From positions 1 to 25,505 of IMG/VR virus record IMGVR_UViG_3300044941_000120: a stretch of DNA of 25,505 bases. One strand, 5' to 3'. Origin of the DNA: a virus. Within the stretch, counting starts at the first letter, position 1; the number at the start of each line of letters is the position of its first letter. The translations under genes were made by a program, and so were the position numbers. Below, piece by piece: positions 1 to 24,554 of the stretch. Under the pieces are notes generated by a model. It saw only the letters and a list, made by a program, of their open reading frames with translations, had not been told where the DNA came from and did no database searches.

Positions 1-579
<579 letters not shown>

Positions 580-19688: not shown

Positions 19689-20537
19689 TTATTCAAATGC
19701 CGATTCTATCTGATCGAGTATGTAAGCCTCTTCCTGTTCGCGTTTCGTCATATGCCTTTGCTGCCCCGTTTTGGCCCCGCCAGTCGCTTTAGGTGGGAAA
19801 AGGCCAGACCATCCGTTTTCGATACTGTTCGCTATGCTCTCGATAGCTCCAGACTCTCCGAATCGAGAGAGTTTTTGGAGTTGCCCCCGCATCGTCGAGG
19901 GGGTGAGTGTGATCCGTCTCTCTCTGCGATAGTCGATCCACGCTTTCCACGCTACGCGAAATTGCTCCGATTGGAAGGGTAACGGCAAGTCTTCGGGTTT
20001 TTCCCTCACGGGTCTTGGTTCGGGTTTGGGCGTTGGCTTCGGTGTCGGTGCAGGCGTGGTGGTAGGATCGGGTTCGATCACAAATCCCCCTTTGGGGGTA
20101 GGGGGTGTATTAATATATTCTCTCTTCTCTTCTCTTCTCTTCTCTAGGTGCGCTTTTTGTCCGCTTTCACTGCGGACACTTTGCGGACGTTTGTCCGCAC
20201 GCGCGGACATTTTGCGGACAGAATCGGACGCCCTACGCTTCGCCGTCTGCCCGTTATGCTTCTCAAAGTCCACTGCTATAAGACCTTGCGGAGTTGCTTG
20301 TATCCAACCGACAGAAATCATACTTTCGGTAATTCCAGGAAGCCCTACCATTTCATCCAAAATCGTAGGCGTGTAGTGGGGGAGGTGCCCGTCGAGGGTT
20401 TGCTCGTCGAATAGACACCAGACCGCAAAGAGCCCGCCGATTGTTCGCAACCTGTCCGCACCCAATGCGGACATAATGCGGACAGTTCGCGGATCTGTGA
20501 GCAGGCACTTTCGCATTTTGATCCAATCGTTAGCCAT
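19689..20537 (-). CDS. Putative phage replication initiator (winged-helix N terminus, O/DnaD-like)
   Basis: 282 aa. Residues ~1-105 form a helical, winged-helix-type domain (WIKMRKCLLTDPR at the start, GGLFAVWCLFDEQTLDG around 33-49, then SVGWIQATPQGLIAVDFEKH around 80-96), as in phage initiators. A basic region (~100-140) and a Pro/Thr/Lys linker (~150-180, PTPKPTPKPEPRP) follow. The C-terminal region includes FRVAWKAWIDYRRER around 196-210 and ANSIENGWSGLFPP around 240-252, the layout of the helicase-loader-binding end of initiators. The gene itself contains origin-like repeats. ATG with a weak GGA upstream. The initiator role is inferred from layout; no exact family is claimed. Confidence 0.72.
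   Translation of the reverse strand: MANDWIKMRKCLLTDPRTVRIMSALGADRLRTIGGLFAVWCLFDEQTLDGHLPHYTPTILDEMVGLPGITESMISVGWIQATPQGLIAVDFEKHNGQTAKRRASDSVRKMSARADKRPQSVRSESGQKAHLEKRREEKREYINTPPTPKGGFVIEPDPTTTPAPTPKPTPKPEPRPVREKPEDLPLPFQSEQFRVAWKAWIDYRRERRITLTPSTMRGQLQKLSRFGESGAIESIANSIENGWSGLFPPKATGGAKTGQQRHMTKREQEEAYILDQIESAFE
20108..20119. other. AT-rich stretch next to the iteron cluster (possible DNA unwinding element)
   Basis: TATTAATATATT is the only continuous A/T run of this length near the iterons. It sits 39 nt from the first iteron of the cluster, with the pyrimidine tract between. In lambda the iterons are likewise followed by an AT-rich region that melts. Function is inferred. Confidence 0.4.
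20121..20145. repeat. Five tandem copies of TCTCT within the initiator gene
   Basis: A perfect (TCTCT)5 tract on the plus strand. On the coding strand it encodes the charged EKRREEKRE segment. Gain or loss of one 5-bp unit would shift the reading frame and remove the Pro-rich linker and C-terminal domain. It also forms the asymmetric purine/pyrimidine tract of the origin-like region. Confidence 0.85.
20158..20484. repeat. Iteron-like repeats TGTCCGC/GCGGACA inside the initiator gene (candidate replication origin)
   Basis: Nine copies, eight exact, in two clusters. Cluster near 20158-20220: positions 20158, 20172, 20183 (last base differs), 20192, 20203 and 20214. Cluster near 20453-20484: positions 20453, 20467 and 20478. 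Three neighbouring pairs of direct copies start 11 bp apart (20172/20183, 20203/20214, 20467/20478), about one helical turn. In the protein the same 7-mer is read in different frames (as VR, MSA and AD), so the repetition is in the DNA, not only in the protein. Lambda has its origin iterons inside gene O in the same way. Confidence 0.68.
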
Positions 20538-23808: not shown

Positions 23809-23905
23809 ACTGTGACCATGCCAAGCCGTGCCCAGCCACGCCGCGCCTCGCCCAGCCTTGCCCCGCCTCGCCTCGCCAGGCCACGCCGCGCCTCGCCGCG
23901 CCTCG

Positions 23906-23988
23906 CTTGTCTCTCGTGTATCGCTAGGGTGGCTACTTAGGCCGCTCATATGTCGGCAGGGATTCCCCCGCCGACCAGCGGCACGAAC
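23906..23988. repeat. Hairpin unit A
   Basis: Starts CTTGTCTCTCGTGTATCG and ends after AGCGG. The hairpin spans 23942-23981: outer CCGCT/AGCGG, inner GTCGGC/GCCGAC, apex GGGA/TCCC. Nearly identical to unit B (one mismatch over ~76 bp), 197 bp away. Confidence 0.85.
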
Positions 23989-24102
23989 CACGCCATGCCA
24001 TGCCATGCCATGCCTAGCCGCGCCTCGCCCAGCCTTGCCCCGCCAGGCCGCGCCTCGCCGAGCCCGGCCTTGCCCCGCCAGGCCGCGCCTCGCCGCGCCT
24101 CG

Positions 24103-24186
24103 CTTGTCTCTCGTGTATCGCTAGGGTGGCTACTTAGGCCGCTCATATGTCGGCAGGGATTCCCACGCCGACCAGCGGACACAAAT
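24103..24186. repeat. Hairpin unit B
   Basis: Same order of elements as unit A, hairpin at 24139-24178. Its segment CCCACGCCGACCAGCGG is the closest of the three to the end of the neighbouring 207-aa gene. Confidence 0.85.
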
Positions 24187-24369
24187 GAGCCTCGCCATAC
24201 CACGCCGCGCCTAGCCTTGCCTCGCCCGACCTCGCCTCGCCTCGCCGAGCCATGCCATGCCTTGCCTAGCCTCGCCGCGCCCCCCCGCGCCTGACCCAGA
24301 CTGACCACGCCAAACCACGCCACGCCTAGCCTTACCACACCCAGCCCAGCCAAGCCAAGCCTTGCCTCG

Positions 24370-24449
24370 CTTAGCTCTCGTGTATCGCTAGGCGGTTTGG
24401 GACCGCTCATATGCGGCAGGGAGCCCCCGCCGATCAGCGGACACGAATG
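24370..24449. repeat. Hairpin unit C, diverged
   Basis: Shares CTCTCGTGTATCGCTAGG and CCGCTCATATG with A and B, but the middle differs and the inner stem is reduced to CGGC/GCCG. Hairpin about 24403-24440. Confidence 0.8.
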
Positions 24450-24554
24450 AGGCTTGTCGACTTGCGACGGAGGCCTCGCCATACCACGCCGCGCCTAGCC
24501 TCGCCTCGCCAGGCCACGCCTCGCCAAGCCCCGCCGTACCACGCCTGGCCAAGC

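Follow-up and report, generated by a model that had tools for sequence, protein, structure and literature searches.

That a replication origin can lie within the gene of its own initiator is known from phage lambda, whose origin occupies the middle of gene O and places its iterons next to an AT-rich tract (PMC7466680). Here we ask whether the initiator gene of another virus holds an origin of the same kind. The gene lies in a stretch of viral DNA of 25,505 nucleotides (hereafter the window), for which a first-pass annotation, made from the letters alone, had predicted a lambda-like origin within the initiator gene. Our comparisons indicate that 20086-20484 is very probably the phage's replication origin, situated inside the initiator gene and working in the lambda manner. 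To judge from sequence, the origin-like element is real and its layout is lambda-like, although its initiator is not of the lambda O family. Beyond the lambda precedent, a large phage family has conserved these parts at the DNA level, and, newly seen here, a regular purine pentamer recurs with many iterons and in several initiator families.

Iterons and low-stability DNA within the initiator gene

The 7-mer TGTCCGC, or its complement GCGGACA, occurs exactly 11 times in the 25.5-kb window against an expectation of 3.66, and none of 100 shuffles reached 11. Eight of these sites fall within 20158-20484, a 327-bp section of the initiator gene, and such a cluster has a Poisson probability of ~6e-16 (~1e-11 once multiplied by window length). 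The exact sites at 24175 and 24437, outside the cluster, belong to an unrelated GC-rich repeat. The 7-mer is not frequent elsewhere, and in five complete related phage genomes TGTCCGC-N4-TGTCCGC pairs (≤ 2 mismatches) occur solely within the initiator gene.

The first-pass annotation had listed nine sites, eight of them exact, and both its counts and its coordinates were right; the ninth, at 20183, reads CGTCCGC (one mismatch). It missed two further degenerate sites, of which TGTTCGC at 20442 departs from the 7-mer at one position and GGTGCGC at 20147 at two. When these are counted, two four-site dyads are complete (Table 1), each made of two direct and two inverted sites. Sites start 11 bp apart in every direct pair, as had been noticed, and 14 bp apart across each dyad centre. 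Both clusters originally described are present; in gene orientation, a partial array follows ~220 nt past the upstream dyad, and the two dyads are ~260 bp apart. The upstream array spans gene nt 54-96, inside the codons for the DNA-binding domain, and the sites, which the annotation had placed in different reading frames, are spread over all three.

Beside the larger cluster, where they had been placed before, lie the pyrimidine tract and the AT-rich stretch. Tandem Repeats Finder reported (TCTCT)5 at 20121-20145 (5.0 copies, 100%). Read in gene orientation, the purine tract is followed by TATATTAATA and then by an inverted repeat of C5/G5. In a nearest-neighbour profile, the tract together with the AT stretch ranks within the least stable 0.03% of window positions at 20 bp and the least stable 0.11% at 40 bp. 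The gene has two features of lambda-type origins: iterons clustered within the gene of the matching initiator and adjacent AT-rich, strand-asymmetric DNA, the latter easily melted as far as nearest-neighbour energies tell. At this locus GC skew shows no change of sign. Being weak and mostly negative over the whole window, which may be a fragment, it is uninformative and was dropped as an origin marker.

Table 1. Features of the initiator gene, its protein, and the candidate origin.
Feature	Position	Strand	Basis
Replication initiator gene, 282 aa	19689-20537	minus	phrog_2509 profile match
N-terminal DNA-binding domain (predicted)	initiator residues 1-116		AlphaFold2 model
Disordered linker (predicted)	initiator residues about 120-185		AlphaFold2 model
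Helical C-terminus (predicted)	initiator residues 191-281		AlphaFold2 model
Upstream iteron array, four-site dyad TGTCCGC-11-TGTCCGC-14-GCGGACA-11-GCGAACA	20442-20484	minus	27/28 matches
Partial extra array, two direct and one inverted site	20192-20220	minus	three exact sites
Downstream iteron array, four-site dyad, last site degenerate, adjoining the purine tract	20147-20189	minus	25/28 matches
Homopurine pentamer tract, AGAGA units, 28 nt	20118-20145	minus (coding strand)	(TCTCT)5 on plus strand
AT-rich stretch TATTAATATATT	20108-20119		read from sequence
Inverted repeat of C and G runs, CCCCCTTTGGGGGTAGGGGG, with CCCCCT/AGGGGG as its stem or CCCCC-TTT-GGGGG as an inner one	20086-20105		

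Conservation as DNA among relatives chosen by protein

Relatives were selected solely by the N-terminal domain of the initiator, and the best 80 viral loci were reduced to 51 non-redundant ones, the window included. All 51 have an AGAGA-type tract at gene nt 360-405, with one variant (AGAGGAGAGG) and two shorter forms. Exact sites stand just upstream of the tract in most of them, where the consensus sites of the downstream array lie at -42, -31, -18, and -7 from the tract, and the upstream array recurs at nt 53/64/78 in nearly all. Relatives that keep the protein also keep the repeats, with both clusters positioned alike in nearly every case.

The first-pass annotation had argued from the reading frames that the sites are constrained as DNA, and codon use bears this out. 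Synonymous bias was 1.32 bits at the upstream array versus 0.41 elsewhere in the DNA-binding domain (p = 2e-5), with one codon dominating at V19 (GTC, 100%), S23 (TCC, 100%), A27 (GCG, 100%), and R20 (CGC, 92%). Arginine codons within the tract were AGA in 145/145 cases versus 121/991 in the rest of the genes; this count uses the protein-selected relatives, and a count on loci found by their tract was set aside as circular. When 1.9 kb of the window was compared with phages by blastn, the sole match was 73 bp of iterons and tract, ~88% to epsilon15-like phages, whose initiators have ~47% protein identity to that of the window. These phages (Uetakevirus) and Pseudomonas phage phiPSA1 share a homologous DNA-binding domain (46-48% identity), with TGTCCGC sites and an AGAGA tract at matching places, but have other C-terminal domains. 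No described epsilon15 origin was found in the literature searched. In complete phage records, the tract, where present, occurs at one place only, within the initiator gene. The iterons and tract are conserved as DNA, and it is well supported that the tract is a conserved cis element.

We considered whether the sites might instead be operators for self-repression, with the purine tract merely encoding a charged linker, REEKR. Consistent with this idea, the upstream array and the beginning of the initiator gene overlap, and the REEKR peptide recurs. However, the tract-side sites lie 320-390 nt into the gene, the exclusive use of AGA constrains the tract codons beyond what the peptide demands, and the DNA pattern persists with other peptides: KERKGK in Lin1244_N proteins, KSRVDKSRVD in L020, and EEEEE in L026, L028, and L030. 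This explanation is very improbable.

Some relatives have other iterons (GTAACG, GTCACG, GTCTAC, TGTCCCG, and more) in an unchanged layout. Every protein of the GTCCGC class has G or A at residue 35, and those of the GTAACG and GTCACG classes mostly have another residue there. This is suggestive of a tie between residue 35 and iteron specificity, an association uncorrected for kinship that may reflect shared descent. The tract itself also varies. Four relatives from Escherichia, Klebsiella, and Enterobacter phages (L023, L026, L028, and L030) have, at the usual place after GTAACG-type iterons, a period-6 tract of AGAGGA that codes for EEEEE and lacks the exact pentamer. In Vibrio phage 1.211.A (L020, initiator gene from 2501), AGAGT/AGATA pentamers coding for KSRVDKSRVD retain the 5-nt period and have lost both the purine-only rule and the peptide.

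The initiator protein and the comparison with lambda

The phrog_2509 replication initiation protein profile matched residues 1-236 of the initiator with E = 7.1e-48. AlphaFold2 confidently modeled a winged-helix-like domain at ~10-96, followed by a long helix to ~116. The predicted disordered linker is the part of the protein that is encoded by the origin sequence, and disorder would be expected there if selection acts on the DNA rather than on the protein.

In a fold search, 5kbj and 4pt7, which we take to be N-terminal domains of RepA_N-type plasmid initiators, aligned to residues 1-90 (Z 5.4, 81 aligned, rmsd 3.2 Å). Their likeness to the predicted model is the winged-helix arrangement over these residues; they have no sequence match to the initiator, and their Z of ~5.4 was tied with many unrelated winged-helix proteins. 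The search yielded generic winged-helix matches only, and the absence of other families from it carries no weight. Nothing relevant emerged from searching the PDB by sequence or profile, and a protein scan of genome contigs found no relatives of the initiator. The 159-aa gene next downstream had no helicase-loader match in a Pfam/PHROG-type profile search, which counts against the origin reading.

Membership in the lambda O family was rejected. Pfam gave no hit for the initiator, to Phage_rep_O (PF04492) or any other family, and the Phage_rep_O profile scores 5.7e-36 on lambda O itself; BLASTP against lambda O returned a best E of 2.5 over 15 residues. A phrog_678 'O-like' match was restricted to residues 119-270. 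Lambda O relatives were gathered for a census, but they hardly differed from lambda and offered no diversity.

The likeness to lambda is one of layout. Like the origins of lambda and the Stx phages, the candidate origin sits in the central part of the gene that encodes the initiator (PMC5043065, PMC7466680), and the parts come in the order that had been recognized at first, namely iterons, strand-asymmetric purine tract, and AT-rich DNA. An inverted repeat follows, and in our reading of the lambda sequence one stands at the matching place there. Where lambda has four palindromic iterons of 18-19 bp, the candidate origin has 7-bp sites grouped in four-site dyads. It also has a further conserved array ~260 bp upstream, and a regular pentamer where lambda has an irregular, non-periodic AAAAG-rich tract. 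The prediction of a lambda-like origin is supported as to protein family, clustering, constraint, order, low stability, and disordered linker, with the amendment that the protein is not of the lambda O family by sequence. The analogy also undersells the locus: it has a pair of arrays, an inverted repeat lies downstream, and its pentamer tract is common to several other initiator families.

The C-terminal domain is swapped among relatives (L015, L018, and the window), with the DNA-binding domain and the origin cassette retained. Its type is DnaT-like in epsilon15 and different in the window initiator and phiPSA1.

Purine pentamers in other initiator families

To follow the tract itself, 2.9 million viral contigs were searched with the 21-mer (AGAGA)4A, using no protein information. 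The abundances of (AGAGA)n and (AAAGG)n are lower bounds, to be read as at least the numbers given, and the loci listed are not a random sample. Among the matches listed, (AGAGA)4A fell in 95 non-redundant proteins, including that of the window; 72 match phrog_9474 and 65 phrog_2509, and some of the remaining ones belong to further replication-initiation families. Pfam assigned members of these listed proteins to DnaT, Lin1244_N, and Phage_rep_org_N. Iteron-like repeats were present in the 90 bp upstream of the tract at 76% of listed (AGAGA)n loci; for the 90 bp downstream the figure was 7%. Most AGAGA tracts in bacterial genomes are simple repeats that lie outside initiators, and a minority are prophage origins.

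(AAAGG)n, first picked as a neutral control, turned out to lie in initiator genes as well; it was then counted as evidence, and other controls took its place. Among the (AAAGG)n matches listed, 49/79 proteins match Lin1244_N and 49/79 match phrog_2562 initiators, with further initiator families also seen. When Lin1244_N relatives were selected by protein, 13/13 had a purine tract, made of AAAGG pentamers in 12 and of a shorter degenerate run in L693. The new controls fell mostly outside initiator genes, both the non-purine pentamer (ACACA)n (61 loci) and the period-4 purine (AAGG)n (36 loci). On the strength of these searches, the purine pentamer is common to several initiator families with unrelated iterons, which suggests a common, apparently unnamed component of phage replication origins. 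We found nothing about phage origins in literature on the tract or its peptide, in a search that left most subscription journals outside.

The pentamer array has a median length of ~20 nt, close to a helicase footprint. Its autocorrelation is 0.93 at lag 5, and nearly all initiator loci carry the purines on the coding strand. The latter would suit a mechanism in which mRNA rich in purines anneals to the pyrimidine template strand during transcription and the resulting R-loop holds the origin open, as would the activation of ori-lambda by transcription (PMC5043065). We consider such an R-loop unlikely, because it leaves unexplained both the strict 5-bp period and the use of different pentamers in different families. 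Moreover, a period-4 purine tract should hybridise equally well, yet is rarer and mostly not in initiators.

A second account of how the tract might work is that any low-stability or triplex-prone purine run would serve. The tract region is a stability minimum, the purine-rich tract of lambda is non-periodic, and some relatives have period 6. Against this, the pentamer period is strict, the choice of pentamer is family-specific, and pentamers fit poorly into coding sequence, since one added unit shifts the reading frame. An unspecific run is conceivable but somewhat unlikely as the full account, although the period-6 relatives and the irregular lambda tract argue that at least part of the effect of the tract is physical.

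Stem-loops, defined as perfect stems of ≥ 6 bp within 60 nt downstream of the tract, were present at 36/97 listed AGAGA viral loci, versus 6% in shuffles and ~10% further downstream. They also occurred at 13/46 homology-selected loci (5% in shuffles) and at 27/80 listed AAAGG loci (versus 11%). Stem sequences are unrelated between loci, and a TAAC-like loop is common to several. A DnaA box was rejected as a general origin part, being near the tract in only 6/51 relatives and absent there in the window. A consensus box 42-48 nt after the tract was seen only in L514, L519, L521, L524, L527, and L537.

A proposed course of initiation

In lambda, the iteron-bound initiator bends DNA, neighbouring DNA opens, and helicase enters (PMC5043065, PMC7466680); the minimal unwinding unit is two iterons with the AT-rich tract, and O binds single strands (PMC7466680). 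By analogy, the winged-helix-like N-terminal domain would bind the four-site dyads of TGTCCGC and assemble with them into a nucleoprotein complex. The neighbouring pentamer tract and AT-rich stretch would then open, with negative supercoiling and transcription across the gene as aids. Of the tract, one strand would be captured in single-stranded form, and helicase would be recruited there via the C-terminal domain of the initiator. We infer that the tract is a strand-asymmetric element for unwinding and helicase entry. The upstream dyad may be a second binding array for loop formation or control, and the stem-loop may also have a role.

The strict 5-nt period and family-specific unit suggest that the captured strand is read, as with DnaA-trios and the repeats of plasmid unwinding elements. 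Unwinding-element repeats of the DnaA-trio, of plasmids, and of V. cholerae ori2 are bound as a single strand (PMC10797057). They resemble the tract in being short tandem repeats beside initiator sites on a fixed strand. The window differs in having a 5-nt purine repeat on one strand of phage coding sequence, whose reading is a prediction, and an initiator that is neither DnaA nor RctB. We tentatively propose, as plausible if not quite probable, that an (AGAGA)n or (AAAGG)n array just downstream of iterons is a widespread, sequence-specific part of phage origins, common to several initiator families, and that the initiator or helicase loader reads it single-stranded, 5 nt at a time, which would make it a phage counterpart of the DnaA-trio.

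The purine asymmetry of lambda has been called paradoxical, in that it stiffens DNA where opening is needed (PMC5043065). A periodic, family-specific tract makes this paradox testable, with period, composition, and strand varied separately. Iterons, purine pentamers, AT-rich DNA, and a stem-loop together could also offer a simple DNA signature for locating origins in uncultured phages.

Other repeats in the window

A GC-rich array of 0.7 kb at 23830-24550 consists of 5-bp GGCNN units with higher-order repeats of 197 bp and 35 bp. It is interleaved with three copies of an element holding a CCGCTGGTCGGCG...CTGCCGACATATGAGCGG inverted repeat, and weak matches (~70%) occur both in Enterobacter plasmids and in some mycobacteriophages. 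Tandem repeats also occur at the left end of the window, at 120-192 and 415-548, with units of GCCCGAGCCTGA and 24 bp.
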